DNA from: Candidatus Brevefilum sp.
Lineage (GTDB): Bacteria > Chloroflexota > Anaerolineae > Anaerolineales > Anaerolineaceae
Assembly (NCBI GenBank): GCA_019428905.1
Contig: JAHYJN010000003.1
Coordinates: 1 to 64,000, forward strand
Direction of reading: 5' to 3'
DNA: 64,000 nucleotides
The notes under the pieces were generated by a model. The model saw nothing but the letters and a program-made list of their open reading frames with translations. It was not told the DNA's origin and did not search any database. Below, piece by piece: positions 2,100 through 20,605 of the stretch (position 1 is its first letter; every line of letters begins with the position of its first letter). The position numbers were made by a program, and so were the translations under genes.

Positions 2100-3722
2100 A
2101 TGAACGAACGAAAGAAGAAGGGCACCCGCTGGCTCGGGCTGGTGACCGCGATATTATTGTTGGGATTGTTAACAGGTATAGCTTCTCAGGCAACGCCTGT
2201 AACTGCCCATGAGGACCCACCTGAACCAGGTGATGATCCTAGTATTCCCCCAACGTGGGGAGTCGGCCCCTGTGTATATGAAGATTGCGGTATCCAATAT
2301 CCCAGTCCAGGTTTAAATTGTACCTCTGAAGATATGAGAATTGCCCGACTTGATCTTTATGAAGTGACCAATTACTGCCAACAAGACCCCGAAGGAACCG
2401 GTATTTTTGAATTTCGGGTTGAGTTTATTGCCGGTTCTAAAGAACGCTATTCACCTTTCATCTGGATGGCTTTGGATGGCGGTGATGCCAAACTAGGTAC
2501 CTGCTACAAAGATTATTTAGAGCCGGTGGATGCTACCGCAGTTGACCTATTAGGAGGTTACGGTCCGTTTTGGGATTTGGATGGTGACGTCTGTGGCGAT
2601 GTTAAACAAAATGAGCTAAATGTTAAGATCATCGGTCCAGTTGCACTTAATTGCGACCACCTCGCACTCCTAGACACGAGTTATGTTGCTGTACTCCTCG
2701 GTTGGGATAATCAAGCGGTTGATTGTTCATTGGAAAATGGCTGTCCGGGTACAGCAGCCAAATGTAAATATGACGCTGAAGTTCCATTTGACGTCAGCTT
2801 GCGACAGGTCGATCTGGCCATCACCAAAACGGCAAAGTTCAATGATGAGGAGATCACAATAATCCCCGAAAATGGGATGTTCGATTATGACCTGGTCGTG
2901 ACACATACCGGTGCATTTGACCCGTATTTCGCAACTCTAGTTCCACCTGAGTATTATTGTTTTGATTCAACAGGCTACAGGATTACCGATAATCTACCCA
3001 CCTACTTGAAAATTCAAGATACATGGCTGCCTTATATGGAATACGATAACGGGGAATTGATGGTTGAATGCGATTCTGAACCTGACCCGACAGAATCCTG
3101 TTACCCAAATTGTGGCGGATATGGTGATAAATTAACCTGTCGTGTTTACCGTGATCTAGCATGTGCATCTACAACCAATCCGCCTGTTGTTATACCTAAC
3201 TCAGCCTCCGCCATAACCGTACCCGTTCAACTGTGGATGGGCAGGCCATCAGATCCAACTGGCACTCCCTTCGATGATCTGAACATTCTGCCCGATTTCA
3301 TTGAAAATACAGGCTGTGTTGCTGGAAATGAGTTTGACTGGATCGAAGCTAATAACTGTGACGATGCCGAAGTGACCGAGGTCACCCTGGCATACTTCAC
3401 CACCACCGCTTATAAACAGGAAATCGCCGTTGAATGGAAGACCGTCTCCGAAGTTGACAACCTGGGTTTCAAGCTATACCGGGGTACCAGCCCGTTGCGC
3501 AGCGACAGCGTCTTAATTTATGAGGTCAGTAGTACTACCAGCACAGGTGGTGCAACCTACACCTTCATCGACAAGATGGGTGGACGCATGGGCTTGCGAC
3601 CAAATACCGTTTATTACTACTGGCTTGCCGATATCCCAGCATCGGGTATACAAGCATCGGGTATACAAAACGTATATGGACCCGAATCAGCTTCTTTGTT
3701 GTTGGGTTCAAAAGGCAAATAA
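2100..3722 (+). CDS. Secreted beta-rich protein (DUF11-like and FN3-like domains) at head of cluster A
   Basis: A 540-residue protein. The N-terminus is a signal peptide: charged residues 1-11, a hydrophobic core ending near residue 30, then ASQATPVTA. The mature part is cysteine-rich (ICPGT-like and CYPNCGG-like stretches), suggesting disulfides outside the cell. Residues about 237-300 (VDLAITKTA, FDYDLVVTHTG) resemble DUF11-type beta domains. The last ~110 residues have WKTVSEVDNLGFKLYRGTS, typical of an FN3-like beta domain found at the end of many Chloroflexota surface proteins. It is the first gene after a good promoter and lies 13 bases before an S26-type peptidase gene. It could be a substrate or surface partner of the system, or merely co-transcribed. 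No catalytic motif was seen. Confidence 0.7.
   Translation: MNERKKKGTRWLGLVTAILLLGLLTGIASQATPVTAHEDPPEPGDDPSIPPTWGVGPCVYEDCGIQYPSPGLNCTSEDMRIARLDLYEVTNYCQQDPEGTGIFEFRVEFIAGSKERYSPFIWMALDGGDAKLGTCYKDYLEPVDATAVDLLGGYGPFWDLDGDVCGDVKQNELNVKIIGPVALNCDHLALLDTSYVAVLLGWDNQAVDCSLENGCPGTAAKCKYDAEVPFDVSLRQVDLAITKTAKFNDEEITIIPENGMFDYDLVVTHTGAFDPYFATLVPPEYYCFDSTGYRITDNLPTYLKIQDTWLPYMEYDNGELMVECDSEPDPTESCYPNCGGYGDKLTCRVYRDLACASTTNPPVVIPNSASAITVPVQLWMGRPSDPTGTPFDDLNILPDFIENTGCVAGNEFDWIEANNCDDAEVTEVTLAYFTTTAYKQEIAVEWKTVSEVDNLGFKLYRGTSPLRSDSVLIYEVSSTTSTGGATYTFIDKMGGRMGLRPNTVYYYWLADIPASGIQASGIQNVYGPESASLLLGSKGK
3639..3668 (+). repeat. 15-bp perfect tandem duplication inside a coding region
   Basis: GCATCGGGTATACAA occurs twice back to back (3639-3653 and 3654-3668). 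It adds a second ASGIQ pentapeptide to the FN3-like domain without changing the reading frame. This is a recent-looking slippage event near the protein C-terminus. Confidence 0.85.
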
Positions 3723-3735
3723 GTACGGAGACCTT

Positions 3736-4287
3736 GTGACGGACTTAACCACTTCTTCTGCAACTGAGCATATCAAACCAGTGGATGCGACGACCAGGAT
3801 CCCATGCACCTCGGCTGCTTTTACCGAGCTGAGCGCCGAGGTGCTCCGATCGGGTTGGTCAATCCGCTTCCGTGCCCACGGAAAAAGTATGACTCCCCTT
3901 TTGCGAGATGGCGACCTTTTGTTGGTCCAACCCGTAGAACATGGATCACTTCGACCAGGTGAGATTGTCCTATGCAGTCTGAGCCCAAGCCATGTGGTTG
4001 TACACCGTATCATCCGACATGCACGACAGTCTGATGGGGATAGGTTTCTAGTCCAGGGTGATCAAGCGTCAACACCTGATGGCTGGTTTAACTCCGATCA
4101 AATCTTTGGCAGGTTGGTTGAGATTGAAAGAGATGGGCGTCGTATCCAAATGGTTACGTTACATATCCGATTTCTTGACCAGATTGCAGTTTGGCGCCTG
4201 CGTTTGGGTTTTACTCGATTTTGGGTCACACGCACAGCTGGTGTAGCCTTAAAACGTCTACCTTGCTTTGGCCGCTTTTTTTCATAG
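3736..4287 (+). CDS. S26-type signal peptidase-like protease (cluster A)
   Basis: The chosen start is the GTG at 3736, preceded by GGAG at 3727-3730, giving 183 residues. Extending the frame upstream would overlap the previous gene. The catalytic serine sits in HGKSMTPLLRDGD (Ser51). The second conserved block VVVHRIIRH places a histidine (His90) where bacterial leader peptidases have lysine, which is the S26B (archaeal/ER/SipW-like) Ser-His form. A GDQ...PDGW block follows, giving the usual Asp region. No N-terminal membrane anchor is visible, though the C-terminus is hydrophobic and basic. The next gene, pqqD-like, starts 10 bases later. A related protein sits in the same relation to a pqqD-like gene at 18978. 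A role in cutting or exporting the modified peptide is inferred. Confidence 0.75.
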   Translation: MTDLTTSSATEHIKPVDATTRIPCTSAAFTELSAEVLRSGWSIRFRAHGKSMTPLLRDGDLLLVQPVEHGSLRPGEIVLCSLSPSHVVVHRIIRHARQSDGDRFLVQGDQASTPDGWFNSDQIFGRLVEIERDGRRIQMVTLHIRFLDQIAVWRLRLGFTRFWVTRTAGVALKRLPCFGRFFS

Positions 4288-4297
4288 GAGTTACCGT

Positions 4298-4594
4298 TTG
4301 GATAATCAAGATTTACACTTTGTTCGCAATCCGGATTTCATCTTCCGCAAGATCGTCGAGGAGACAATCTTGGTGCCTGTTTACCAGGATGTAGCCGACA
4401 TGGATGCCATTTACTCTCTTAATGAGCTGGGGGCATTTATTTGGGAGTGCCTGGCCACGCCATTAGAAATGTCCAAGCTTGAGGGGAACATCCTTGATGC
4501 TTTTGATGCTGACCCGAGTAAGGTCAGCGAGGACCTAATCCATTTCCTGGATGAGATGGAAGCCATCGGCGCTGTTACACGAGTAGAGGCATAA
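4298..4594 (+). CDS. PqqD-family peptide-chaperone protein (cluster A)
   Basis: The start chosen is TTG 4298 with AGGAG at 4286-4290 seven bases upstream, giving 98 residues. An ATG at 4268 in the same frame would overlap the peptidase gene and lacks this site. The sequence has the PqqD layout: two beta strands (RNPDFIFRKIVEETILVPV), then IYSLNELGAFIWECL, then a helical half ending in LIHFLDEMEAIGAV. PqqD proteins bind the leader of a RiPP precursor and deliver it to a radical SAM enzyme, whose gene here starts 5 bases downstream. The best-conserved feature is the LNELGAFIWE block. It is unlikely to be anything else. Confidence 0.85.
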   Translation: MDNQDLHFVRNPDFIFRKIVEETILVPVYQDVADMDAIYSLNELGAFIWECLATPLEMSKLEGNILDAFDADPSKVSEDLIHFLDEMEAIGAVTRVEA

Positions 4595-4599
4595 AGAAC

Positions 4600-5718
4600 A
4601 TGAGCTGCCCTGAGATTAACCTGGATGCCTGGAGCGATACACTTTTAGCGCCGCTTCATCAGAACGAGCGTTACCCAATCTCGGCTACCATGGATCTGAC
4701 GGAACGCTGCAATCTAAATTGCGTTCATTGCTACATTAACCAACCATCAGGATCGAAAATCGCCCACGCCAAAGAATTAAAAACCGACCAGGTGAAACAA
4801 ATACTTGACACCATCGCTGATGCCGGCTGTTTGTTCTTAGTGCTCACTGGTGGTGATCCCCTCTTGCGACCGGATTTTAGTGAAGTTTACATCCACGCCA
4901 GACGTCGGGGTTTTATCATCGATTTACTGACCAACGCAACCCTGATTACACCGAAAATTGCAGATATGCTAGCCGAGTCAAGGCCTCATTCAGTGGATGT
5001 GACCCTGTACGGTGCCTCGGAAGAGACTTATGAAGCTGTCACTCGGCTCCCTGGTTCTTTCAAACGGTTATTAAATGGGTTAGACCTGCTGACTGAAAGA
5101 GGAATTCGACTTTCATTAAAGTCTATTATTTTAAAGACAAACAGGCACGAACTGCCAGCTTTGATTGACTTAGCTAAAAGCTATGACGCACCTTTCCGCT
5201 ATGACGGGATCATTTGGCCTCGCCTGGATGGCGATCAAAGTCCGTATGAATACCAACTTTCACCGGAAGAACTGCTAGAAATGGACTTAGAATATCCAAA
5301 TCGAGCTGAAGAATGGCGGGAACAAGCACAAGTCTTTAAAGGTCAAATGGTACGTAAAGAGTATATTTACACCTGTGGTGCAGGGTTACGTTCCTTTCAT
5401 GTTGATAGTCATGGTAAAATGAGTATTTGTACGATGGCCCGTAAGCCGGCTTATGATTTAACAAAAATTCGCTTTGAAGAGGCTTGGGACCGCTTGGCTG
5501 ACCTGCGCCATGAGAAGCGGACATTAAATACACCCTGCGAGACTTGTTTGGCCGGTGCACTTTGTGCCCAATGCCCTGGCTGGTCTCAGGCGGTACATGG
5601 CGATGATGAAACGCCAGCAGAATTCATCTGCAAGCTTGGTAAACTGCGAGCAGAACAATTTTCATCATCCATTCTTTATTACGAGGAGATGAGGTATGAA
5701 AACCAAGAAATTATATAA
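4600..5718 (+). CDS. Radical SAM/SPASM peptide-modifying enzyme (cluster A)
   Basis: A 372-residue enzyme. The radical SAM cluster motif is C37-N-L-N-C41-V-H-C44 followed by YINQP. A TGGDPLLRPDF motif follows near residues 85-95. The C-terminal SPASM region has CGAG followed by further cysteines in CETCLAGALCAQCPGW and a final FICKLG cysteine, enough for auxiliary [4Fe-4S] clusters. Such enzymes make sactionine, thioether, C-C or epimer modifications in ribosomal peptides, using the 5'-deoxyadenosyl radical. The stop lies 23 bases inside the start of the precursor gene, implying translational coupling. The exact bond made cannot be predicted from sequence. Confidence 0.9.
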   Translation: MSCPEINLDAWSDTLLAPLHQNERYPISATMDLTERCNLNCVHCYINQPSGSKIAHAKELKTDQVKQILDTIADAGCLFLVLTGGDPLLRPDFSEVYIHARRRGFIIDLLTNATLITPKIADMLAESRPHSVDVTLYGASEETYEAVTRLPGSFKRLLNGLDLLTERGIRLSLKSIILKTNRHELPALIDLAKSYDAPFRYDGIIWPRLDGDQSPYEYQLSPEELLEMDLEYPNRAEEWREQAQVFKGQMVRKEYIYTCGAGLRSFHVDSHGKMSICTMARKPAYDLTKIRFEEAWDRLADLRHEKRTLNTPCETCLAGALCAQCPGWSQAVHGDDETPAEFICKLGKLRAEQFSSSILYYEEMRYENQEII

Positions 5719-5884
5719 GGCACCAAAAGTAAACAAGGTGCAGTTGTCCATCAATAATGCCATCCTATCAGTTTGTCACACCAGTCCGACAACATTACGA
5801 CCAAAGGATAGCTTTAGTACTTGTGCTTTGAACCCAGGCTGTTATTCTGGGCCAGGCGGACCTTTACCTTCGACCGAAGGATAA
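5696..5884 (+). CDS. Candidate RiPP precursor peptide, 62 residues (cluster A)
   Basis: A strong GAGGAG (5683-5688) lies 7 bases before the ATG, inside the end of the radical SAM gene. The leader-like half has Y-K-A-P-K-V-N-K-V-Q-L and N-A-I-L-S-V-C27, matching the Y..P.V..V.L....AIL..C pattern seen in leaders of several radical SAM/PqqD-associated peptides. The tail has cysteines 27, 43 and 49, many Ser/Thr, Pro and Gly, and ends GPGGPLPSTEG. Possible products are Cys-linked thioethers or cyclophane-like links. Size, position between radical SAM enzyme and kinase, and composition support a precursor role, but the core boundary is unknown. No double-glycine site is visible. Confidence 0.8.
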   Translation: MKTKKLYKAPKVNKVQLSINNAILSVCHTSPTTLRPKDSFSTCALNPGCYSGPGGPLPSTEG

Positions 5885-5960
5885 TCCAAGCTCTGGATCA
5901 GTCACGGTTCCACTTTTTGTATGAGGTGATTTTTTACCGGTATTTGCACATAATTTGCTG

Positions 5961-6869
5961 ATGTCTGTTAATGTGACAAAGCAACGCCTCAACATTTCTG
6001 TTGCAGATCTGGTACTGACTCTGGATGCCAGGAATACGGAGATCCATTTAAAATTACCTGACTCATGTCACTACCCCTTTCTAGTTGACCATACAGCCGA
6101 AGTTTCCCATACTTCGGCTGTATCCGAATCATTGCTCATCAAAGTTGACAATGTAACAACGCTTTCACTTTTACCAAAAGATCATCTTATCTCCCAAAAC
6201 TCCTTCTTTTCTGTTTATTGTAGCCCCGGTGGGGATTTAACCATTTTCGCAGAACGCGAATCCTTACCATTTTTACTGAACATCAACCCCAATTTTTCGT
6301 CAGGAACGATTGAAGGTCGATTTTTAAAGAATGGGGTCAAAGATATTTACCCGTTGCAGTCTATGGGAATTGTTTTGTATGCAAACTGGCTGGCACAATT
6401 TGGTGACCTGATTTTGCATGCTGCAGGGATCGCGGTTAATGGAAAAGGGTTTGCATTTATTGGTCCCTCAGGGGCTGGAAAATCAACGTTGATGAAACAT
6501 GTCCTCAGTCAAAATTCTGGAATCGTGTTGGGTGAAGATCAGGTAGTATTACGTTTTATTCATGATCGATTTTGGATTTATGGGACACCATGGCATGAAC
6601 GTCCTGAAATGTGTGATCCAGTTTCTGTCCCACTGGAAAGATTATTCTTTTTAGATCGAAATCAAAGGCAAGTAACATTGAAAATTAGTGCTATTGCTGG
6701 TGTCCAACGCCTGTTACAGACTGCATTTATCCCATTTTACCGAGCCGATCGCATACCCCTCATCCTAGATCAGCTAGCTAAATTGTCGGAACATGTACCC
6801 TTTTACTCATTAGCATACTGCCTTGGAACCGACATCTTATCCATTATTTTAAACACACAAGCTACATAA
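5961..6869 (+). CDS. HprK-like P-loop kinase (cluster A)
   Basis: 302 residues from the ATG at 5961; a TTG two codons upstream is an alternative and neither has a close ribosome binding site. The C-terminal half matches the HPr kinase/phosphorylase fold as found in RiPP clusters: LHAAGIAVNGKGFAFIG leading into the Walker A GPSGAGKST (residues 168-176), then GEDQVVLR in the position of the family's acidic DD/ED loop, then YGTPWHERPEM and PLERLFFLDR. The N-terminal 140 residues form a beta-rich domain that may recognise the substrate. Kinases of this type phosphorylate a Ser or Thr of lasso-type precursors in other systems. Here the Ser/Thr-rich precursor next door is the likely target, by inference. 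Confidence 0.75.
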   Translation: MSVNVTKQRLNISVADLVLTLDARNTEIHLKLPDSCHYPFLVDHTAEVSHTSAVSESLLIKVDNVTTLSLLPKDHLISQNSFFSVYCSPGGDLTIFAERESLPFLLNINPNFSSGTIEGRFLKNGVKDIYPLQSMGIVLYANWLAQFGDLILHAAGIAVNGKGFAFIGPSGAGKSTLMKHVLSQNSGIVLGEDQVVLRFIHDRFWIYGTPWHERPEMCDPVSVPLERLFFLDRNQRQVTLKISAIAGVQRLLQTAFIPFYRADRIPLILDQLAKLSEHVPFYSLAYCLGTDILSIILNTQAT

Positions 6870-6878
6870 ACATGACCC

Positions 6879-6909
6879 ATTAGGCCTGGTAACACCTAAT
6901 CTTTCTTTT
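6879..6909 (+). terminator. Possible weak terminator after the kinase gene
   Basis: ATTAGG (6879-6884) and CCTAAT (6895-6900) can pair across a 10-base loop, followed by CTTTCTTTTG. The stem is only 6 bp, so any termination would be partial. It lies between the kinase and the protease gene. Confidence 0.35.
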
Positions 6910-6938
6910 GTATTACAAAAGACTGGAGATTTCCACCA

Positions 6939-9900
6939 ATGAGCATAAAATTTGAAAAACCACTTATAATTATCCTTGTTTTCCTTTTAGTTATCGGTTT
7001 TCTTCCTTTCACAAATGCATACAGCACACCTGTTAATCCTGCACTTTCATTTACATTGGATAACAGCAATCAATTTACTGTGCAATTACCTTGGGACCAG
7101 GTTGAGCTTAACACCGTCACCTATGCCGATACCAAATATATCAGCGTTGACCTTCCAGAATGGGAGAAGACGAGCCAGCCAGGTTATCCAGAATTGCCCT
7201 ACACCACCAAATTATTTGGTGTTCCATTTGATGTGGAAATCTCCCTCGAGGTCAGATCAGGGGAAGTCCGTCAATACAACCTTTTGGCACCAGTATTTCC
7301 CACCCCAGATTTAATCACCAATTGGCCTCTAAATCGATTAGAAAACCAGGATAGCCTCATGCCTGAATTCACAAATGTGGTGGAAAAGGAGCCGCAGGTT
7401 TATCTGGGTGGCAACGTTTATCCTGGTGAATTGGCGAAAATTATCAATGACGGCATCCTACGTGGTCAACGGATCATTAGCGTCGCTGTTTTTCCAATCC
7501 AATATGAACCGTCAAGCAACCTTCTGATCATTTACAAAAACCTTGAAGTATTCATCAGTTTCAGTGACGATGCTTTTTTGCTACGATCACAACCATCATC
7601 TGATTCTTATGTTTACGAAAGCCTTTTTCAGGAAATGTTAGTTAATTATGAGGAGGCTCGTCAGTGGCGGCAAAAAGAAAGCGCTCTCCCCAGCACAACA
7701 ACAAGTCCTGATTCTTTTGATGCGAGAATTTCAAATTTTAGCGCACAGGAATGGATCCCCCCGTCACCATCCTGGCGTGTTGTCGTTCGGGAACAAGGGA
7801 TACACCACATCACATATGATGAATTGTTGGCAGCTGGTATATTGGTTGGTTCTCCTGACCCGGCAAATTTCAAAATGTACTATCAAGGGGTAGAAATTCC
7901 CATTGAGATCAGGGGTGGAGCAGGTGGTGTATTCAATAGCGGTGACAGGATTGTTTTTTTTGGTGAATCAATTAATAACAAGTACACGAAAGACAATGTT
8001 TACTGGTTGACTGTTGGGTCCTCACCCGGTTTGCGAATGACCTCGAGGGCCGGCACCCCCACTGGCGCCGACACACCCAGCCACTATCAGGCTGATATTC
8101 ATTTTGAAGAAAACAAATCCCATTGGTCACTAATGCCTGGCTCAGATGACCTTGAGCGTTTTTACTGGCAGTTAATCGCATCTCAATCTGCTGGATCACC
8201 ATCAAGTTGGGAACATCATTTCACTTTGCCCACACCAGTGTTGGACTTACCCGGAAGTATCACGGTTGCTATGATTGGGTACACATCTTATGCTGCTATC
8301 CAACCAGACCATCACGTCATCGTGCATCTTAATGGGCAACTTCTCGGTGAAACAAAATGGGATGGTCGCACATGGAAGATGCTCACTCTAGATATTCCAG
8401 GTGGGATACTCAACACTGGAAACAACACCCTCAGGCTAACCCTACCGAATGATACAGGGGCAGCCGAGGATACCATTCTTGTCGATTGGATCAATCTAAC
8501 TTATAACAACCAATTCTTCGCCCAAAACAATCTGTTTTCATTTAAGTATGACTCTGGAACATGGCAATACGTTGTGAACGGTTTTTCAACCAACCAGATT
8601 AGTGTTTATGATGTCACCAATCCAATTGCACCTGTGATTGTTGATGGCGCTCAAATTAGCGCATCGTCACCGTTTTCCCTGACATTTAAAGACACGATCA
8701 GTGCTAGAAAAAATTATCAGGTTGTAGGGCAAACAGCATTTAAGTCAGTCCTGTCCATTCAAGCAGGCAACAACGCTGCGAATCTCTACGACAAGACACA
8801 AGGTGCGGATTATATCATCATCTCCCATTCAGCTTTTCTTTCTCAAGCTGAGGCATTGCGGGCATTCCGAGCTTCCCAAGGTTTACACACAGTATTGGTG
8901 GACATCCAAGATGTGTATGATTTCTTCTCTTTTGGTGTGGCTGATGCGAGCGCTATTCATGATTTTCTTGCTTATACCTATGATAACTGGCAACCACCAG
9001 CACCCTCTTATGTACTACTCGTTGGGGATGGCCATTACGACCCCAAAGATTATTTAAATTATGGGCGCACAAGTTACATCCCACCCTACCTGGCAATGGC
9101 CGACCCAAAACTAGGAGAAACAGCAGCTGATAACCGCTATGTAACCCTGGATGGCGCTAACCGCATGCCCGATATGATGTTAGGTCGGCTGCCTGTTAAT
9201 AGCGCTGCTGAAGCAGATATCATGGTAAATAAGATTATAAATTACGAGACTGCTAGTCCCGCAGATTGGAACGCCAGGTTCCTGGCAGTAGCCGATAAAG
9301 CAGACAGTGCCGGGGACTTTCCGACCATTTCGGACAACATCATAACCCGCTACTTGCCTGATCATTACACTTTGTCGCGGGCTTATTTTGGTCTTTCACC
9401 CACAACAACCCCTGTACTGACCAAACAAGCCATTATCGATGCAATCAATACCGGTTCCCTGTTTGTCAATTACTTTGGACACGCGGGTGACACATTTTGG
9501 TCTGAACAAAACATTTTCTCCACAGCCGATTTAATTTCACTTAACAACAGCACACAACTGCCAGTCGTATTGGCAATGACTTGCCTGGAGGGCTTTTTCC
9601 ACAATCCCGACCCTGAACCCGCCTTTGCCGTCGCTATGACACGTGCGGCCGATAAAGGTTCCATTGCTAACTGGTCGCCAAGTGGCGTTGGCGTGGCAAC
9701 CGGGCATAGTTTCTTGAATCACGGTTTCTTGTGGTCGTTCTTTCAACGCGGCTCACTCACCCTGGGTGAACCTATCATCAGCGGCAAACTCCATCTTTGG
9801 GCAAGTGGTTCTGCCCAGGACCTATTAGATACTTACCATTTGTTTGGCGACCCAGCACTGCGCGTGCGCCGTATCCTGACTGGCATCCCTGACTCCTATG

Positions 9901-12212: not shown

Positions 12213-12235
12213 AATTCTCCTTGTCCTGAAAATAC

Positions 12236-12261: not shown

Positions 12262-12347
12262 TGATTAGCTCAATGTAAAGAATTATCAACACACCTGCCA
12301 TTAATCTTTCATTCGTAAAGTCTCAACACTCGATTGGTTAACCTTAC

Positions 12348-13604
12348 ATGACCGCACCCGATCTCACCCTGCTCCTGTGCCAGGCGCTTACAGCGCATTC
12401 CATTCCTGTTGAAATGCAAACAGACCTGCTACAGTTCACACTTGAGGATTGGAAAGCTTTGCTCTATCTGGCGGATCAACACAACCTGACACCCATCCTC
12501 TATCAACAGCTGAGGGAATGCAAGCAAGAGCTTGCTATTCCACCGGAGATAACTGACCGCATGCGTCGGGCTTTTTTAACCAATGCAGCCCGCAATACAT
12601 ATTTCTTACACGAAACAGGCCGCATTCTGCAGGCTTTTTCAGAAGCTGGCCTGCCGGCTATCGGCCTTAAAGGCGTTTTCCTGCTGGAAAATATTTATCC
12701 AAATGTCGCTTTGCGATCGATGTCTGACCTAGACCTGATGGTCGAAAAAAGCGATATCACAGAAGCGCTGGCGATCATCGAAAAATTGGGATTCCACCCG
12801 ACAACCTTTTTTGATATTCTGGATAAAAATATCGATATTAAACATGTGCCCCCTTTCGTCAAAGGGGAAGGTCCCTTTCTAGAGCTGCATTGGACGCTGC
12901 TGGAAGAAAACGAACCCTTCAGCATTGAGACGGATGGGATTTGGCAGCGCGCCCAACCTGCGAAAATCGCGGGCGTGGATGCATTGGCACTCTCCCCAGA
13001 AGATCTGATCCTGCACCTTTGTATCCACCTCACCTATCAACATTACTTGACTTTGGGCTTGCGCGGTCTTTACGACATTGCTGAGGTTTTACGTATATAC
13101 AATAGCCAAATTGATTGGCGGACTTTGGAAGAAATAGCACACAGGTGGGGAACAGAGCGAGTGCTGTGGTTAACGCTGGCCCTGGCACAGGAGCTCTTGG
13201 ATGCAAAGATCCCACCAAGCTTGTTAGCTAGCCGGCAGCCGCAGGGATGGGTCCTGGCAGGTGCAAGGGCACAACTGTTGGAGCGGTCAAGGCGTGGGGT
13301 TATTATGACCCCTGACCTGGCCGCCTTATCAACAGAAAGAGGACTCTTTAACCGAATCAAGTTGATCTTGAGCCGGATCTTCCTTCCTAGGCGAACGTTG
13401 GCCCGGATATATAACGTCCCGCCGAACTCCATCCACATTATTGGCGGTTACATCAAGCGTTTTCTCGACCTGAACAAACAATATGGCATTGCAGCCAGGC
13501 GTTTACTAAAGAAAGACCAGCGTATGATGGCTGGTGTTGAAAATGAACATGCGATTGCGAGCTTAAGAGGATGGATGACAGCAGGCAATCACAACAACGA
13601 ATAA
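12348..13604 (+). CDS. NTP_transf_5-like nucleotidyltransferase (cluster A)
   Basis: A 418-residue protein of the uncharacterised nucleotidyltransferase family found near RiPP genes. Visible motifs are GLKG at residues 106-109, then a Y..... R.MSDLDLMV block with the metal-binding aspartates Asp127 and Asp129, then FLELHWTLLEEN, where E/H would complete the site. The C-terminal half is helical. In lasso peptide clusters relatives sit next to HprK-like kinases and act on the precursor or a phosphorylated residue. Here the HprK-like kinase is two genes upstream. Transfer of a nucleotide or glycosyl-type group to the peptide is inferred. No clear Shine-Dalgarno sequence precedes ATG 12348. Confidence 0.7.
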   Translation: MTAPDLTLLLCQALTAHSIPVEMQTDLLQFTLEDWKALLYLADQHNLTPILYQQLRECKQELAIPPEITDRMRRAFLTNAARNTYFLHETGRILQAFSEAGLPAIGLKGVFLLENIYPNVALRSMSDLDLMVEKSDITEALAIIEKLGFHPTTFFDILDKNIDIKHVPPFVKGEGPFLELHWTLLEENEPFSIETDGIWQRAQPAKIAGVDALALSPEDLILHLCIHLTYQHYLTLGLRGLYDIAEVLRIYNSQIDWRTLEEIAHRWGTERVLWLTLALAQELLDAKIPPSLLASRQPQGWVLAGARAQLLERSRRGVIMTPDLAALSTERGLFNRIKLILSRIFLPRRTLARIYNVPPNSIHIIGGYIKRFLDLNKQYGIAARRLLKKDQRMMAGVENEHAIASLRGWMTAGNHNNE

Positions 13605-13801
13605 GATTTATTAAATAATACCGTCAAAAAGGACTCCTGAGAGAAACAATCCACCGGATCAAATCTTCAATCGGAAGACAGGAATAATAATGATCGAATG
13701 CAACATGCCTTTCCGAGCTATTAAACAGTTGTCCATCAAGAAATGCGGAATTTGAATTGGAAAACCTCATCATTCCCATAGTGAAATCAGAAGAATTATA
13801 T

Positions 13802-14069
13802 GAGGGTGTTGTAAATGATATTTTTCTCAATACAAATTTAATCGTGGGGGCGGACCTCCTTGTCCGCCTCGCGTAGCATTCTTTGAGCTGGGCAATACCC
13901 TGGCGGGCACAGACCACAGTTACGACTCGATGAGCCTTCGCAGAGAGTGCTAGGCGAAGGGTTGCCCCTATGCATCGGTATAATATTGATGATAAAAGTA
14001 TTATGATGAAATTATTTATGGACTTTAACAAATATTGATTGATCATTATCCATTTTTCAACACTCTCTC
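13802..14069 (+). repeat. MITE-like dispersed palindromic element, copy 2
   Basis: It starts GAGGGTGTTGTAAATGATAT (13802) and ends TTTTTCAACACTCTCTC (to 14069). The GTGGGGGCGGACCTCCTTGT arm and the GGGTTGCCCCTATGCAT arm match the other copies. The inner GCGTAGCATTCTTTGAGC module is in the opposite sense to the corresponding part of copy 1, as if the centre had flipped. GGTATAATATTG in the right arm is a conserved -10-like motif. Minus-strand open frames across it are by-products of the palindrome. The remaining gap 13605-13801 shows nothing. Confidence 0.8.
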
Positions 14070-14156: not shown

Positions 14157-14191
14157 AATCAAAGGATTCAATCACACACAGGAGATGCATT

Positions 14192-14404
14192 ATGGATGAG
14201 AAAACCCAACCGTGGGAAAAACCACAATTGATCATCATGGCAAAGGGCGAGCCTGAAGAGAGTGTGCTTACCCACTGCAAGACGATGAACCCAAATCGAC
14301 CTCAAACAGGCCCGACAGATTTGGTATACCAAGATACTTGCGCGGGTGGACCGGATTATGACAGTTGTACAAATTGCCAGTCCAGGGCAGTTAACGCGAC
14401 CTAG
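14192..14404 (+). CDS. Candidate RiPP precursor peptide, 70 residues (cluster B)
   Basis: AGGAG at 14180-14184 and ATG at 14192 give ideal spacing. The leader half reads W8-E-K-P-Q-L-I-I-M and P21-E-E-S-V-L-T-H-C29-K, a pattern (aromatic-EKPQL ... PEExVLxxCK) that recurs in radical SAM-associated precursors of uncultured bacteria. The tail has cysteines 50, 59 and 62 with aspartates, glycines and a C-T-N-C pair. It is unrelated in sequence to the cluster A peptide beyond the shared P-x-L/V...VL..C layout. It sits under its own promoter ahead of three radical SAM genes. The modification and cleavage sites are unknown. The short length and absence of other homology leave some uncertainty. Confidence 0.8.
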   Translation: MDEKTQPWEKPQLIIMAKGEPEESVLTHCKTMNPNRPQTGPTDLVYQDTCAGGPDYDSCTNCQSRAVNAT

Positions 14405-14497
14405 TTTTTTCTAAAACATTGGTTTATCATTTCCATTTATCTGTAGGAGAAGATATATTTAATTTTAAATATTGGTAAACATGACATATACAGCTTA

Positions 14498-14559
14498 GAT
14501 TCACTTAGATTACACTGATTAGTTTGAATTATCGTTAATTTTCGGTGTCTAAGTGAATC
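14498..14559 (+). promoter_or_regulatory. Long hairpin between precursor 2 and its modification genes
   Basis: GATTCACTTAGA (14498-14509) and its exact complement TCTAAGTGAATC (14548-14559) form 12 bp; six further inner pairs are possible with a small bulge. No T-run follows. Placed between a precursor gene and the downstream enzymes, it could keep peptide mRNA stable and lower read-through into the enzyme genes. Confidence 0.5.
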
Positions 14560-14610
14560 GATTCTTATTGGTAAAGTTTTAATTAACAAAATGGTTCCCT
14601 GCCAGGATTT

Positions 14611-16581
14611 ATGAAAAACGTATCTACACGGAAATACTTCCCAAGGCTTCCTCTGGATGGGCGACTAGACCTGACCTACCGCTGCAATAATCATTGCCGC
14701 CATTGCTGGCTGTGGGAGTCCTCCCAGTCAAGCTTAGCAGCGAGAGAGTTAAGTTTTGCTGAGATTCGAGACATTGTCGACCAGGCCCGGGCAATGGGCT
14801 GCCAAACCTGGGCCATCTCAGGCGGGGAGCCGATGCTGCGGCCAGATTTTGTAGATATTTTCGATTACATCACCCAAAAAACCGTTTCCTATAAGCTAAA
14901 TACCAATGGCACCCTGATCACGCCAGAGATTGCTCACTTGCTGAGGCGCAATGGCAATACCATGGTCGCACTCTATGGCGCAACACCCGCTGTGCACGAT
15001 CATGTAACCCGCACGCCGGGATCTTATGAGGCTGCCATGCGGGGCTTTGCTTACCTCAAGGAAGCCGGTGTCAATTTCACGGTGCAGATTGTGCCGATGC
15101 GCGACAACATTCACCAATACGACCAGATGGTTCAATTAGCCCAAACGATAAGCGAAAACATCCGCATTGGTGCGCCCTGGCTCTGGCTCTCAGCGGATGG
15201 CTCAGCAGCCTGCAACCAAGGAATTATTAACCAGAGGTTGGAGCCAAAGGATGTGTTGCAGATCAACATGCCGAATCCTGCAAGTGCAGCACTAAACGAA
15301 TCGCATAACGATCAATCTGTTCGAATTTCAGCTGGGTGTGGCACGCTCACGGACAATGAATATTTGTTTGCCGCTTGCATCTCCGAACGCCGTGATTTCC
15401 ACATTGACCCCTATGGCGGCATGTCCTTCTGTTATTATATTAAAGATCCAGCGTTGCGCTATGACCTGCGCCAGGGCTCATTTCAACAGGCCTGGGATGA
15501 GTTCATCCCCTCCCTTGCCAAACTTGTGCGCGGCGGACAGGAGTATCGGGAGAACTGCGCTACTTGTGATCTGCAATCGGACTGCCTGTGGTGCCCGGTG
15601 TATGGCTACCTCGAGCATGGGCGCTATTCCGCCAAAGTGGATTATCTCTGCCAGGTCGCACAGGAGACCAGGCGCTTCAAGGAGAATTGGAAATTGACCA
15701 ACCTTCGCTATTATCACATCGGGGGCATCACCATCCAAATTGCATCAGATTTCCCTATGCTTGAGGACACCTTCAAACCGAAATTTGAAGCCTTCCGAAA
15801 AGATGCACCGGGCGAGGATACGATTTCTATTAAACTTGCCTCAGGTGTTCCTACGCTCTCTGATCTTCGACTCGGTCAGGAGGTCTTTCGCAGGCCACCC
15901 TGGGCTATCTATCAAGGCCGTGATTCATACGTTTATCGGGTCATCACCACAGACGATGATCACAGTGACCCCAAAACACTGGCCATCGTCAGCCGTGACC
16001 ACACCCAGATCACGATTTACCGAGATCATCACATCTATCAACAAGGCGGGTTGCCCTCCCTGACGACATTCACATCTGATCAGATCCTGCTGGCTCCAGT
16101 CTTAGCAGACCGCCAAGGATGTTTTATACATGCTTCAGGTATGATCATGGCGGGCCAGGGGTTGTTGTTTGTCGGTCATTCAGAAGCTGGCAAATCAACC
16201 ATGCTTAAAATGCTCAGAGACCAGGGTGAAATTTTATGTGATGACCGCATTATCGTCCGCAGCTGGCCAGAAGGTTTCCGCATCCATGGCACCTGGAGCC
16301 ATGGTGAACTGCCGAATGTTTCGCCAGCCAGTGCCCCCCTGCGAGCCATCCTGTTCCTGGAGCAGGCCAAGACCAACCAGCTGATACCGATTGATAACAT
16401 GCAAGAAAAGCTCGGGAAATTGCTCTCCCATGTTGTCAAAGCACTGATCACGGAAGAATGGTGGGATAAAACCCTCACATTAGCGGGTACCATTGCAGCA
16501 CAAGTCCCGATTTATCGACTCAAGTTCGATCTAAGCGGACAAGTCTTAGATGTGCTCAAGGAACTATATGAGGAAATCTAG
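14611..16581 (+). CDS. Radical SAM/SPASM enzyme fused to an HprK-like kinase (cluster B)
   Basis: A 656-residue fusion. Residues 1-365 are a radical SAM/SPASM enzyme: C25-N-N-H-C29-R-H-C32 motif, SGGEPMLRPDF, SPASM cysteines in CATCDLQSDCLWCPVYG and a final YLCQVA. Residues about 370-656 resemble the HprK-like kinases of cluster A: a beta-rich linker, FIHASGMIMAGQGLLFVG, Walker A GHSEAGKST (522-530), then LCDDRIIVRSW with the acidic DD pair and RIHGTWSHGELPN. One chain would therefore hold a radical modification site and an ATP-dependent kinase site. In cluster A the same two functions are separate genes. No frame break is seen at the joint, so fusion is real unless assembly is wrong. AGGA lies just before ATG 14611. 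Confidence 0.85.
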   Translation: MKNVSTRKYFPRLPLDGRLDLTYRCNNHCRHCWLWESSQSSLAARELSFAEIRDIVDQARAMGCQTWAISGGEPMLRPDFVDIFDYITQKTVSYKLNTNGTLITPEIAHLLRRNGNTMVALYGATPAVHDHVTRTPGSYEAAMRGFAYLKEAGVNFTVQIVPMRDNIHQYDQMVQLAQTISENIRIGAPWLWLSADGSAACNQGIINQRLEPKDVLQINMPNPASAALNESHNDQSVRISAGCGTLTDNEYLFAACISERRDFHIDPYGGMSFCYYIKDPALRYDLRQGSFQQAWDEFIPSLAKLVRGGQEYRENCATCDLQSDCLWCPVYGYLEHGRYSAKVDYLCQVAQETRRFKENWKLTNLRYYHIGGITIQIASDFPMLEDTFKPKFEAFRKDAPGEDTISIKLASGVPTLSDLRLGQEVFRRPPWAIYQGRDSYVYRVITTDDDHSDPKTLAIVSRDHTQITIYRDHHIYQQGGLPSLTTFTSDQILLAPVLADRQGCFIHASGMIMAGQGLLFVGHSEAGKSTMLKMLRDQGEILCDDRIIVRSWPEGFRIHGTWSHGELPNVSPASAPLRAILFLEQAKTNQLIPIDNMQEKLGKLLSHVVKALITEEWWDKTLTLAGTIAAQVPIYRLKFDLSGQVLDVLKELYEEI

Positions 16582-16644
16582 CATTCGTTTAAAAGTGTAC
16601 GAGTTCACCGGTGTTCCTTTTATGAAACAAAATAATTATCTATA

Positions 16645-17874
16645 ATGAGCGATCAAGGTTTTGTCCTCAAAAAAAATGCCCAGGGTTCGAGCTTGTTCAA
16701 ATCGAAACAACCCCTGTTGAGCCATTTGGATATTGAGTTAACCGAGCGTTGCAACAATGCCTGCATGCATTGTTATATCAATCTCCCCGAAAGAGACACA
16801 AACGCCCAAGGCCGCGAACTGGGAACAGACCAGTGGAAAGCAATCCTCACGCAGGCGGCTGACCTGGGGGCGCTGTCTGTGCGTTTCACCGGCGGTGAAC
16901 CCCTGCTCAGGGATGATTTTGCTGAGCTGTATCTCTACACCCGCCGGTTGGGGATGAAGGTTGTTTTGTTTACAAACGCCCGGTTGATGACGCCTGAACT
17001 GGCGGACCTGTTCGCTAGGTTCCCGCCTTTGATGGAGATCGAGGTCAGTGTCTATGGCATGCATGCCGATTCTTATGACGCCATAGCCTATGCACCAGGT
17101 GCGTTTGCTGAATTTCGCCGTGGTTTAAACTTATTGTTGGAAAGGCAGATCCCTTTCGGCCTTAAATCTGTGTTGCTTCCACCTAACCAACATGAAAGAG
17201 ACGAATACGAATCCTGGATAAGGACACTTCCAGGAAACATGAAACCATCCTATTCCCTCCTCCTTGATTTTCGCACCCGCCGTGATAACCCCGCTAAGAA
17301 TCGCATCATCGAGCGTTTGCGCCTGAAACCTGAGGATAGCCTGGCCTTGCTAACACGTCATGAAGCAGATTACTGCCGCGCAATGACCCAGTTCAGTGAA
17401 AAATTCTTATACCCGCAAGGTGATGAACTATTCAATTGCGGAGCTGGCCATAACGGATGTGTCGATGCCTATGGGCAATACCAGATGTGTATGTTGTTGC
17501 GCCATCCAGATATGGTTTATGATTTATCCAATGGTACGCTGAAAGAAGCATTGACAGAAACCTTTCCAAACTTTCGCCAGAAAAAGGCCAGCAACCCGGC
17601 TTATTTACAGCGCTGTGCACGTTGTTTTCTCAAAGGACTGTGTGAGCAATGCCCTGCGAAATCCTGGGCTGAATATGGAACCCTGGATACACCCGTAGAA
17701 TATCTCTGTCAAATTGCTCACCTGCAGGGGCGTTACCTGGGTTTAATTGAAGAAGGTGAAATGGCTTGGGAAGTCAACGACTGGCAGAAACGCATCCAAA
17801 CCTTCGTTCACAAGATGGAAATGCAAGCATCAACAGAAATATCTCAAGCTGATTTATCGGGTGTCAAACCATGA
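16645..17874 (+). CDS. Radical SAM/SPASM enzyme (cluster B, second)
   Basis: 409 residues. The cluster motif is C36-N-N-A-C40-M-H-C43 followed by YINLPER, with FTGGEPLLRDDF next. The SPASM region has CGAGHNGCVDAYGQYQMC, then CARCFLKGLCEQCP and YLCQIA. It is closely related to the enzyme at 19490: same YINLP, SVYGMH and LRHPDMVYDL blocks. The stop codon overlaps the methyltransferase start by 4 bases (ATGA), so it heads a tightly packed unit of five genes running to 20605. It may act on precursor 2 after or alongside the fusion enzyme. Confidence 0.9.
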   Translation: MSDQGFVLKKNAQGSSLFKSKQPLLSHLDIELTERCNNACMHCYINLPERDTNAQGRELGTDQWKAILTQAADLGALSVRFTGGEPLLRDDFAELYLYTRRLGMKVVLFTNARLMTPELADLFARFPPLMEIEVSVYGMHADSYDAIAYAPGAFAEFRRGLNLLLERQIPFGLKSVLLPPNQHERDEYESWIRTLPGNMKPSYSLLLDFRTRRDNPAKNRIIERLRLKPEDSLALLTRHEADYCRAMTQFSEKFLYPQGDELFNCGAGHNGCVDAYGQYQMCMLLRHPDMVYDLSNGTLKEALTETFPNFRQKKASNPAYLQRCARCFLKGLCEQCPAKSWAEYGTLDTPVEYLCQIAHLQGRYLGLIEEGEMAWEVNDWQKRIQTFVHKMEMQASTEISQADLSGVKP

Positions 17875-18683
17875 GGATGCGCATCCGCGTTTCACGATTC
17901 TTATTGGGCTTGGGGGAATTCATTCAAACGCTGCCGATCGTCATCATGAAACCTGATGACCTGGTCGTGTTCAGCCGACAGAGCTATGCCAAACCAGGCG
18001 ATGTTGAAAGTTGGTCAGAAGATGCGCTGGTTAACGCTGGTCTGAATGCAGAGGAACATGACCTGTTGAAAACGTTAACAACCCAAAAAGGAAACCTTCT
18101 CTTATTGGGTGTTGGCGGTGGCCGTGAAGCTATTCCAATGGCTGAAATGGGATTTCAGGTCACAGGTGTAGATTATATTCCAGCCATGGTTGACCGCGCC
18201 AAAGAAAATGCCACCCGTCGTGGTGTAGAAATCGATGGATTTGTACAAGAGATCTCAAAGCTGGATGTTCCTGAGGCTGTCTTTGATGTGGTTTGGATCT
18301 CCAAATCTATGTATTCTTGCATCCCCACAAGAGCCAGGCGGGTGCAAATGGTCCAGCGGATCCGTTCCGCATTGAAACCTGGCGGGGAATTTGTCTGCCA
18401 ATTTCAAATTTGGGCGGGGCAAGAAAATCGTAGCAAAGCAGAGCGTCTGCGCCAATTAATCGCGGCCAGTCCCATTGGCAACCGAACGTACGAAGATGGT
18501 GACAAATTATGGCTAAATGTCGAATTTGTGCATGTATTTCGTTCAGAAGATGAAGTTCGCACAGAATTAGAAGAGGGTGGTCTGGATATCGCTCACATCA
18601 AATTCGACGAATCATCCATCAGGGGTGCTGCGGTTGCAATAAAAACCGATACACAAACATCTATTAGCAAAGGAAAAACATAA
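17871..18683 (+). CDS. SAM-dependent methyltransferase (cluster B)
   Basis: 270 residues with motif I LLLLGVGGGREAIPMAE (about residues 76-92), the acidic ribose-binding residue in VTGVDYIPAMVDRA and a motif IV/post-I region FDVVWISKSMY. ALKPGGEFVCQF marks the usual beta-strand after the substrate pocket. The start overlaps the radical SAM gene by 4 bases and the stop overlaps the pqqD-like start by 1 base. This packing argues that it methylates the peptide or a precursor residue, but methylation of another small molecule cannot be excluded. The N-terminal 35 residues are basic and hydrophobic. Confidence 0.75.
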   Translation: MRMRIRVSRFLLGLGEFIQTLPIVIMKPDDLVVFSRQSYAKPGDVESWSEDALVNAGLNAEEHDLLKTLTTQKGNLLLLGVGGGREAIPMAEMGFQVTGVDYIPAMVDRAKENATRRGVEIDGFVQEISKLDVPEAVFDVVWISKSMYSCIPTRARRVQMVQRIRSALKPGGEFVCQFQIWAGQENRSKAERLRQLIAASPIGNRTYEDGDKLWLNVEFVHVFRSEDEVRTELEEGGLDIAHIKFDESSIRGAAVAIKTDTQTSISKGKT

Positions 18684-18991
18684 TGGAAAACATTCACAAC
18701 GATACCGTTTTTACAATTTCTGAGGATGTTGTCGCCCGTGAGATTGAGGGTGAATTGATCATTATTCCACTGGTAGCCGGAATCGGTGACTTAGAAGATG
18801 AGTTGTTTACGCTTAATGAGACCGGTAAGGCCATCTGGAAACAGATCGATGGCCAAAACAGCTTAGAGACGATCATCACACACCTGATGGAAGCCTACAC
18901 AGCCGAAAGAGATGAGATTGAACAGGACGTGCTCGGATTGGTCGCAGAATTAGCCAAACGCAAAATGGTGGTCGAGATTGCAGGGCTTTGA
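18683..18991 (+). CDS. PqqD-family peptide-chaperone protein (cluster B)
   Basis: 102 residues. The N-terminal strands (FTISEDVVAREIEGELIIIP) and LFTLNETGKAIWKQIDG match the PqqD fold, and the helical end contains QDVLGLVAELAKRKMV. It parallels the cluster A protein (LNETGKAIW versus LNELGAFIW). It overlaps the methyltransferase stop by one base and the peptidase start by 14. Its job would be to bring precursor 2 to the radical SAM enzymes. Confidence 0.85.
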   Translation: MENIHNDTVFTISEDVVAREIEGELIIIPLVAGIGDLEDELFTLNETGKAIWKQIDGQNSLETIITHLMEAYTAERDEIEQDVLGLVAELAKRKMVVEIAGL

Positions 18992-19493
18992 ATCCCCACA
19001 GCTTTTCACCACCCATGTTGATGAATTCCCGCTATCCGGTGAAGCCTTATTAGATCTGTTGCAAACAGTCCTATCCAAAGGTAAACTGTTTCGTTTCAAG
19101 GCAAGGGGTTGGAGCATGTCGCCATTCATCCAGGATGGAGACGTAATCACCATTGCCCCATTAAATAATCGCAAGCCAAGCGTTGGTGAAGTGGTGGCTT
19201 TCATCCGCCCAGAGTCCGGCAATCTGGTTGTCCACCGGATCGTTGCCAGGTACGGCGACCATGTGCTGATCCATGGCGATGATATCCCGGAATTTCCCGA
19301 TGGCATCATCCCATTACACAATATCCTCGGTTCTGTTATCCGTAACGAGCGAAACAATCGGCGTATCTGGTTAGGGCTTGGCCCTGAAAGGGTCTTGATC
19401 GCTTGGCTTTCGCGGGTAAAGTTACTAACACCACTGCGAGTGTGCATCGCACACATACGCAGACCTTTTTCACGCAGGGAACACAGAACATGA
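18978..19493 (+). CDS. S26-type signal peptidase-like protease (cluster B)
   Basis: 171 residues from TTG 18978, the only in-frame start near the domain; it has no clear Shine-Dalgarno sequence but overlaps the pqqD-like gene by 14 bases, consistent with coupling. Ser46 in GWSMSPFIQDGD and His86 in VVHRIVARY form the S26B-type Ser-His pair, and GDDIPEFPDG follows. The cluster A protease shares the same order and spacing (39-40 residues between Ser and His). The basic, membrane-adjacent C-terminus (VKLLTPLRVCIAHIRR) could touch the membrane. It is the best candidate to cut the leader of precursor 2. Alternatively it may only assist export. Confidence 0.75.
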   Translation: MQGFESPQLFTTHVDEFPLSGEALLDLLQTVLSKGKLFRFKARGWSMSPFIQDGDVITIAPLNNRKPSVGEVVAFIRPESGNLVVHRIVARYGDHVLIHGDDIPEFPDGIIPLHNILGSVIRNERNNRRIWLGLGPERVLIAWLSRVKLLTPLRVCIAHIRRPFSRREHRT

Positions 19494-20605
19494 CATCATT
19501 TGTTGCTCGCAACCGAATAAAAGATTTTGCTTTATGGCAAAAAATTGCCAATCAGCGTGTCCCTTTAGATTTCTATCTGGAGATCACTGCACGCTGCAAC
19601 AATAATTGCAGGCATTGCTATATCAATCTACCTGCAGGGAACATGCAAGCCAGCCAGAAGGAACTCAGCCTCGCTGAAATTAGCGATGTTGCTGACCAGG
19701 CAGTTGAGTTGGGTGCCTTATGGTGCCTGATCACCGGTGGTGAGCCCTTGCTGCGGTCAGATTTTGTTGATATCTACCTCTCCCTCAAACGAAAAGGTTT
19801 GCTGGTCTCAATCTTTACCAACGCTTGCCTGGTCAGCGAGGAGCATATCGCCCTCTTCAAACGCTATCCGCCCCGTGACATCGAAGTGTCTGTTTATGGG
19901 GTCAGTGAGACGACTTATGACAGAGTCACACGGAAACCCGGATCTTACGCTGCCTTTCGCCGAGGTCTAGATCTCTTACTGGAAACGGGGATTAAGATCA
20001 AGCTCAAGGCCATGGCATTACGCTCGAATGTACATGAATTGCCACAAATCGCAGAATTTTGTCGCGAGCACAGCAGTGAATCCTTCCGTTTTGACCCTTT
20101 ATTGCACCTGCGCTATGATCAAGATCCTGTTCGAAACGTAGAAATCATGGACGAACGGCTGTCACCAGAAGAAATCGTTGCCATTGAGATGGCTGATGCT
20201 GAACGATCCGCTGCTTTGAAAAACAATTGTGATAGCTTGATTTTTTCAGATCCTGGTCACCACCAGTGCAATCATATGTTTCACTGTGGCGCGGGAAATG
20301 GCAGTTTTACCGTCAGCTATAATGGCATCTTTCGCTTATGTGCTGATCTATGGCATCCAGACACGGTATATGACCTGCGCAAAGGCAGTCTAGCAGATGC
20401 TTGGATAAATTTGGTGCCGCGCGTTCGAGATCAGCAATCCAGCAATCCTGAATTCCTGAATAAATGCCGTGATTGTCCTATCATTAATCTATGTTTATGG
20501 TGCCCTGCCCACGCCCACCTGGAAACAGGTGAGATGGATGCCTTGGTGCCTTATTTTTGCCAGGTCGCTCATGCCAGGGCAGTAGCTTTGCAAAATTCAT
20601 TGTAG
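19490..20605 (+). CDS. Radical SAM/SPASM enzyme (cluster B, third)
   Basis: 371 residues from ATG 19490, which overlaps the peptidase stop (ATGA). A longer frame from 19403 would run through the peptidase gene and is not needed. The cluster motif is C36-N-N-N-C40-R-H-C43 with YINLPAG, then ITGGEPLLRSDF. SPASM cysteines are in FHCGAG, FRLCADLWH, CRDCPIINLCLWCPAHA and YFCQVAH. It is the last gene of the cluster; downstream the DNA is non-coding for 554 bases. Compared with the enzyme at 16645 it is shorter, with an extra HHQCNHMFHC stretch before SPASM. Confidence 0.9.
   Translation: MTSFVARNRIKDFALWQKIANQRVPLDFYLEITARCNNNCRHCYINLPAGNMQASQKELSLAEISDVADQAVELGALWCLITGGEPLLRSDFVDIYLSLKRKGLLVSIFTNACLVSEEHIALFKRYPPRDIEVSVYGVSETTYDRVTRKPGSYAAFRRGLDLLLETGIKIKLKAMALRSNVHELPQIAEFCREHSSESFRFDPLLHLRYDQDPVRNVEIMDERLSPEEIVAIEMADAERSAALKNNCDSLIFSDPGHHQCNHMFHCGAGNGSFTVSYNGIFRLCADLWHPDTVYDLRKGSLADAWINLVPRVRDQQSSNPEFLNKCRDCPIINLCLWCPAHAHLETGEMDALVPYFCQVAHARAVALQNSL

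Follow-up and report, generated by a model that had tools for sequence, protein, structure and literature searches.

We analyzed a 64,000-nucleotide stretch of a Candidatus Brevefilum sp. genome (GCA_019428905.1, contig JAHYJN010000003.1, positions 1 to 64,000; hereafter the window), one part of a source assembly of 3.04 Mb in 149 contigs. The window carries two adjacent gene clusters, A (2100-13604) and B (14192-20605), each of which encodes a short cysteine-containing precursor peptide together with radical S-adenosylmethionine (SAM)/SPASM enzyme(s), a PqqD-like protein, an S26B-type peptidase, and an HprK-type kinase function. Comparison of their sequences argues that the two clusters are branches of one family of ribosomally synthesized and post-translationally modified peptide (RiPP) pathways, apparently an undescribed one. 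With a probability of about 0.65, we propose that the family combines PqqD-guided radical SAM crosslinking with C-terminal phosphorylation, as in cluster B, and that the kinase step has been redirected or lost in cluster A. If this holds, two well-studied chemistries known separately, radical SAM crosslinking of peptides and C-terminal phosphorylation by HprK-type kinases, would meet in a cassette found repeatedly in different phyla. The source genome, having the ordinary form (B) beside the diverged form (A), would then be a natural experiment on target change in a peptide kinase.

Two branches of one family

The precursors of clusters A and B aligned jointly along a leader with the motif [Y/W]xxPx[I/L], followed by EEAVLxxCK and then mostly by two further cysteines; the leader motif offers a search handle for many unannotated precursors. 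The precursor of cluster B (14192-14404, + strand) has the leader WEKPQL...EESVLTHCK, the tail CTNCQSRAVNAT, and a terminal Thr. That of cluster A (5696-5884, + strand) has the leader YKAPKVNKV...AILSVC, followed by two cysteines, and ends in Gly, not Ser or Thr. Both genes are preceded by a stretch resembling a ribosome-binding site. Because relatives hold the same places beside the same enzyme genes, both precursors are real genes, as far as synteny goes.

We built a tree of 76 radical SAM proteins from hand-chosen loci, using a quick method, midpoint rooting, and the Shimodaira-Hasegawa-like approximate likelihood ratio test (SH-aLRT) as the only measure of support. The tree split 72 cassette rows from four rows whose loci have no other cassette gene (SH-aLRT 100). 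The cluster A enzyme fell in a 13-row clade (100), and the three cluster B enzymes fell in three subclades (100, 100, and 97) of one 27-row clade (99); this larger clade also takes in proteins whose loci bear the titles Omnitrophota, Methanomicrobiales, Desulfobulbaceae, and Aminicenantes. This placement suggests that the three radical SAM genes of cluster B arose by duplication within the family. Because the leader and cysteines are common to both clusters and the radical SAM enzymes group jointly, we read A and B as one family and discarded the view of two unrelated systems; the description of the clusters as "differently built" in the first-pass annotation is misleading.

Precursor ends, the kinase, and a proposed pathway

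A first motif pattern for precursors also caught chance short open reading frames (ORFs), and the pool was built with the leader profile instead. It comprised all leader-profile ORFs in loci up to L248, giving 120 distinct peptides, 102 of which had a cassette gene within 2 kb. Thirteen of these 102 belonged to the cluster A clade, and four were unreadable (the second copy of B described below, two doubtful frames in L092, and one masked sequence). All 85 readable precursors outside the A clade ended in Ser or Thr, compared with 465 out of 2871 other small ORFs (40-90 amino acids) from the same loci and 43 out of 337 cassette enzymes. In the A clade, 2 out of 13 precursors keep a terminal Thr. 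The joint profile holds the terminal Ser and might favor such ends; the leader-only model has no tail, and its searches in two phyla returned 26 new distinct peptides. All 26 end in Ser, and 24 have a cassette gene no more than 2 kb away. Left out of this count are L219 and L233 (training rows), L248 (which comes from a training genome and likewise ends in Ser), L229 (no readable ORF), and repeats. Because the peptides are related to each other, we attached no probability to these counts. The residue after the leader Cys also differs: it is His, Asn, Phe, or once Arg in the A clade, and Lys, Ser, or Arg elsewhere. Position +3 from that Cys is Ser or Thr in 13/13 A-clade precursors versus 26/85 elsewhere.

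The HprK-type kinase is a separate protein in cluster A (5955-6869, + strand; H155, K176, E194-D195-Q) and part of a radical SAM/SPASM fusion in cluster B (14611-16581, + strand; residues H-K-D-D-R). By sequence, the cluster A protein matched its family only weakly (HprK_rel_B, 34.8 bits; cut-off 200). Its structure model (predicted local distance difference test score 84.6) matched HprK/P and PEP carboxykinase (PEPCK) entries, with low template modeling (TM) scores relative to the query of 0.27-0.43 (31 rows at E 0.001 or better). The HprK/P and PEPCK folds are related, and the model supports an HprK fold for this protein. Of 71 distinct kinases aligned with MAFFT, 70 kept both His and Lys, and the remaining one is a fragment; 56 had D-D or D-E and 14 had E-D. 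D-[DE] kinases went with Ser/Thr ends in 60 out of 63 precursor-kinase pairs, the three misses being broken or doubtful frames, and all 13 cluster A pairs had E-D-[Q/T] kinases, two with a terminal Thr; a looser motif search puts a few kinase rows in other classes. Cluster B has H-K-D-D-R with a terminal Thr, and cluster A has E-D-Q with a terminal Gly and no match to the combination of H-K-D-D and terminal Ser.

That combination has a precedent. According to the accessible part of one report, the lasso peptide kinases PadeK and ThcoK modify a C-terminal Ser and need a His-Lys-Asp-Asp set (PMC9266682). We propose that the PqqD-like protein holds the leader through the Y/WxxP motif while the radical SAM/SPASM enzyme(s) receive the core, whose start would lie close to the leader cysteine, and most likely crosslink the conserved cysteines. 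In cluster B and in the presumed ancestral form, the HprK-type kinase would then phosphorylate the precursor's C-terminal Ser or Thr, much as PadeK acts on paeninodin. We infer this step because the terminal residue is nearly exceptionless and the catalytic residues are kept, and the lasso kinase precedent makes it the leading reading for the B terminus. The S26B peptidase, joined in cluster A by a secreted C25 peptidase, would contribute to maturing or releasing the product outside the cytoplasm, and the cluster B methyltransferase may have the co-occurring C..C.[AST]R tail as its target. In the A clade, where D-D-R has become E-D-Q/T, the terminal acceptor is mostly lost, and Ser/Thr at Cys+3 is invariant, phosphorylation would have moved to that position or been lost. 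More tentatively, the kinase of this one Anaerolineae branch may have been redirected specifically to the Ser at +3 from the first core Cys, with the C25 peptidase maturing the peptide extracellularly or attaching it to the surface; we consider this joint proposal possible but doubtful. The proposal lends itself to sharp and inexpensive tests, with a single terminal residue, a single kinase motif, and a single leader motif to examine.

Several observations weigh against the phosphorylation pathway. Ser or Thr also ended 17 out of 18 leader-bearing ORFs that had no cassette gene within 2 kb, and no kinase was seen near 24 of the 102 pooled precursors (mostly on short stretches, with flanks often of 1.5 kb). 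The terminal Ser/Thr therefore tracks the leader family rather than the kinase as such. In L095 (Smithellaceae), a Ser-ending precursor accompanies two radical SAM genes, with no kinase found by our own profile in 19.6 kb; in L096, the kinase has E-D-R and the precursor still ends in Ser; and a weak candidate outside the profile (L129:8923-9075), near a G-D-D-L kinase, ends in Arg. The change in the A clade is one event in one clade. Both S26B genes score below curated signal-peptidase cut-offs, no exporter was recognized among the cluster genes of the window, and L101, which has another leader type, gave a methyltransferase match of 100 bits without the tail. The modified peptide itself is a prediction from genes alone.

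Some of these points fit a RiPP cassette in which the radical SAM enzyme, the peptidase, or a nucleotidyl- or glycosyltransferase uses the terminal Ser/Thr for docking or as a cleavage end, and the HprK-fold protein phosphorylates a different residue or serves a different role. Consistent with this, the HprK-fold proteins lie far under the curated kinase models, Ser/Thr ends occur with no kinase in view (the 17 ORFs above and L095), and a PF14907 nucleotidyltransferase is present in some loci. However, His and Lys are kept in nearly every distinct kinase, and paeninodin already pairs H-K-D-D with a terminal Ser (PMC9266682, as far as the available text goes). We regard this explanation as rather unlikely, and we retain terminal phosphorylation as the leading account.

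Relation to known systems and spread of the cassette

Paeninodin-type lasso peptides resemble the present family in having a YxxP leader motif read by a RiPP recognition element (RRE; PMC12710340, accessible part) and a His-Lys-Asp-Asp kinase with a C-terminal Ser acceptor, to which the Ser/Thr ends of the present precursors are the putative counterpart; in pseudomycoidin there is, in addition, the nucleotidyltransferase homolog PsmN, linked to a hexose on phospho-Ser (PMC9266682, accessible part). Unlike lasso clusters, clusters A and B have radical SAM/SPASM enzymes and a Cys core, and neither a lasso B2 leader peptidase nor an asparagine-synthetase-like cyclase was among the matches listed for 15 cluster proteins in NCBIfam (best 25 per protein) or for 10 cluster proteins in Pfam. 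The W/YxxP motif is an RRE recognition motif that StsC binds for a sactipeptide, and the StsA/StsB/StsC system shares with the present clusters a WxxP leader, a discrete PqqD-like RRE, and a radical SAM/SPASM maturase (PMC12710340, accessible part). By contrast, the StsB model reached only 90.4 bits here (cut-off 625), and the present clusters add a kinase, S26B, and C25. The model for the ranthipeptide enzyme PapB likewise scored 55.3 bits against a cut-off of 340.

The SynChlorMet cassette consists of ScmC, ScmD, and two radical SAM/SPASM proteins, and going by the model names, its kinase-like ScmC and PqqD-like ScmD are of the same kinds as parts of clusters A and B; our keyword literature search found no paper on it. 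The clusters could thus be a variant of SynChlorMet, since ScmC matches the cluster B kinase domain and ScmF and ScmE match the radical SAM domains. We judge this improbable: ScmC, ScmD, ScmE, and ScmF scored 46.5, 23.5, 79.9, and 103.3 bits against cut-offs of 125, 100, 400, and 400, respectively, no SynChlorMet precursor matched any of 23 precursors tested, and seven proteins from L083, L093, and L094 reached no SCM cut-off among the matches listed. As all four models fell below their curated cut-offs, we rejected membership. The core might instead be cut out to yield a small molecule, a peptide-derived redox cofactor like pyrroloquinoline quinone (PQQ) or mycofactocin, but this is very improbable. 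PqqD and PqqE-like enzymes are present, and mycofactocin and PqqE models appear among the NCBIfam matches, but the cluster B fusion lies far under both cut-offs (mycofactocin maturase, 116.9 versus 265 bits; PqqE, 70.5 versus 381.35 bits), which excluded membership in these families as well. Moreover, the core varies highly between genomes, and its constant features are the cysteines and the terminal Ser.

The first-pass annotation had proposed an undescribed class in Chloroflexota. Novelty stands as far as we examined it: the same 23 precursors gave only two chance-level matches to NCBIfam (E 0.03, and E 0.048 to the paeninodin lasso family), the window's radical SAM proteins reached no curated cut-off among the matches listed (best 25 each), and a keyword search of the literature, thin for subscription journals, found no publication describing this cassette family. 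In its accessible part, a survey of anaerobes from 2014 refers to HPr kinase solely in connection with lasso clusters and tabulates no Chloroflexi sactipeptide (PMC4289311). Confinement to Chloroflexota proved too narrow, as loci whose titles name Nitrospirae, Desulfobulbaceae, Omnitrophota, Myxococcales, Methanomicrobiales, and other taxa also carry the cassette together with a precursor of this kind. The proposed assignment to RiPP pathways held up: a short precursor with a conserved leader adjoins modifying enzymes in many genomes, and precursor-enzyme synteny is conserved over several phyla.

A search with precursor A gave matches in 11 out of 101 related genomes, source genome counted. 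In eight of these (the source and seven others), the precursor is flanked by the same radical SAM gene and the same kinase gene as in cluster A, and PqqD, S26, and C25 genes usually accompany it; the other three matches (G030, G032, and G099) had no cassette gene at the locus and were dropped. Tyr, Pro, Val, Ser, and three Cys were invariant among the eight aligned A precursors. With a profile of these precursors, 15 out of 400 genomes of the phylum (source counted) gave matches, and ten stretches were taken for gene-neighborhood reading. PqqD, radical SAM, precursor, kinase, S26, and C25 genes all occurred together in three (L066-L068); two (L069 and L070) had the cassette with C25 not in view, one (L073) belonged to the A clade, and four had no cassette enzyme. 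Genome G492 gave six precursor-profile matches; of five stretches examined, L070 alone had cassette genes, and BLAST against the window proteins found in the other four a precursor-like match and otherwise no cassette gene. In two of these, L072:6061-6213 and L075:2479-2625, related leaders KPYQRPEIVQVKLVPTEAVLGGCK stand with no BLAST-recognized cassette enzyme nearby; the leader might thus also work with enzymes of other classes.

We also searched contigs with an alignment of the cluster A radical SAM enzyme and examined 80 of 552 confirmed loci. Among these 80, the closest named cassettes came from Anaerolineaceae/Anaerolineales assemblies (L076-L079). By our own profiles, 40 out of 80 loci had at least one further cassette gene type (19/19 for L076-L094 and 21/61 for L095-L155), and 40 had the radical SAM gene only. 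The joint precursor profile matched 15 out of 18 genomes reached through these loci, 11 out of 297 in the phylum of the Desulfobulbaceae locus, and 21 out of 193 in the phylum of an Omnitrophota locus, and the leader-only model matched 12 out of 178 in the phylum of a Nitrospirae locus and 13 out of 149 in that of an Aminicenantes locus, which we take to be Acidobacteriota in GTDB. Many scanned genomes are metagenome bins, in which single taxon assignments may be wrong. One genome of 1.3 Mb from the phylum of the Omnitrophota locus (G1158) had 12 joint-profile matches, an unusually large number of copies.

Two further groups of loci had related gene content. In Clostridial loci (L106-L109, L115, and L124), a radical SAM gene is accompanied by HprK-like genes and, in many cases, by PqqD-like ones; a motif pattern found neither a Walker A of the expected form in their kinases nor the family leader. 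In Elusimicrobial loci (L103, L104, L114, and L122), radical SAM, PqqD, and kinase genes have small peptides encoded nearby that end in Ser but carry another leader, YEKPxM...ETAALACGKC; these peptides lie outside the terminal-residue pool.

Genes of the two clusters and accessory genes

ORF and family matches confirmed the gene order and positions previously given for both clusters. Both gene sets lie wholly on the + strand, their genes mostly overlapping or closely spaced, and B starts about 590 bases downstream of the end of A. Cluster A begins with a gene for a secreted protein with no Pfam or NCBIfam match (2100-3722), a BLAST relative of which precedes the cassette in L024-L030. There follow an S26B-type (Ser-His) signal-peptidase-like gene (about 3736-4287, from a GTG start codon that we chose; GKSMTP...VVHRI; PF00717, 28.3 bits, cut-off 23.3; TIGR02228, 44.3 bits, below the cut-off of 51.85), a PqqD-like leader-binding protein or RRE (4268-4594; PF05402, 39.6 bits, cut-off 23.4), and the radical SAM/SPASM enzyme (4600-5718), with CNLNCVHC and seven SPASM-type cysteines. 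Downstream of the precursor and kinase lie the secreted C25 peptidase of gingipain/PorU type with MBG repeats (6939-12212) and the accessory nucleotidyltransferase (12348-13604; PF14907, 222 bits), both as previously annotated. The opposite-strand ORF at 13624-14046 is probably not a gene, and no structured RNA was found in the window at Rfam gathering scores.

Counting the kinase fusion, cluster B has three radical SAM genes, in agreement with the annotation of two extra enzymes and a fusion. After the fusion come the second radical SAM/SPASM gene (16645-17874), the previously noted SAM methyltransferase (17871-18683; PF13649), the PqqD-like gene (18683-18991; TIGR03859, 43.4 bits, below the cut-off of 46), the S26B-type gene (18978-19493; GWSMSP...VVHRI; TIGR02228, 37.4 bits, below the same cut-off as in A), and the third radical SAM/SPASM gene (about 19490-20605). 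The fusion occurs in 5 out of 396 genomes of the class, source genome counted (E 1e-60 or better). A B-like precursor adjoins it in L040, L041, and L042; none was seen in the short contig L043. The source genome has a second B set on contig C86, in which a short tandem repeat breaks the precursor frame (L023:3700-4320), a break that may be genuine or may reflect misassembly. Directly upstream of this copy is a gene for an ABC transporter (PF00664/PF00005).

The C25 protein matches the whole PF01364 model (294 bits) and shares the His/Cys motif (GHAG...TC) of gingipain and PorU, here beside a RiPP cassette. In its accessible part, a review of RiPP leader proteases does not use the terms C25, gingipain, S26, or signal peptidase (PMC10885120). 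Among the 13 distinct cassettes in the A clade, 12 have C25 next to them; in the remaining one, L030, the contig breaks off with a C25 fragment still visible. By our own profile, C25 also stands beside L066-L068, L088, L091, and L102. In the Anaerolineae loci L252 and L259, C25 occurs alongside D-D kinases and precursors that end in Ser; the association with C25 therefore need not have arisen together with the loss of the terminal Ser. PF01364 gave 52 matches in 37 out of 101 related genomes, many without the cassette. Among 13 loci hand-chosen from these matches, two had PqqD, radical SAM, precursor, and kinase genes (S26 not seen), two had PqqD and S26, one of them also with a kinase, and nine had none of these or an S26 or secreted-protein match alone. 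C25 as a cassette marker thus holds only in part, as nine of the 13 chosen loci had no PqqD, radical SAM, precursor, or kinase gene. At the C-terminus, the C25 proteins of the window, L024, L026, L073, L076, L079, L252, and L259 carry a motif resembling [FY]LP[LI] or FMPM, followed by a few residues, which may be a surface-sorting signal; others, such as those of L025 and L027, have no such motif.

A PF14907 gene lies within 8 kb of the kinase in 4 out of 13 A-clade loci (own profile), and its product in cluster A could act after the kinase. The methyltransferase was present in all five loci with C..C.[AST]R near the precursor end (the window, L023, L040, L262, and L263), of which the window, L023, and L040 built the profile, and in L262 the tail prompted the search that found the gene. 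It was present in 0 out of 11 W-leader loci without this tail (one duplicate contig omitted; some flanks short). Genes for a sugar transferase (PF02397), an epimerase, a nucleotidyl transferase, and Wzz/AAA_31 proteins lie near some A-type cassettes and the window clusters (L029:2179-5999, L025:17105-18628, and window:21160-23022), hinting at a link to surface polysaccharide.

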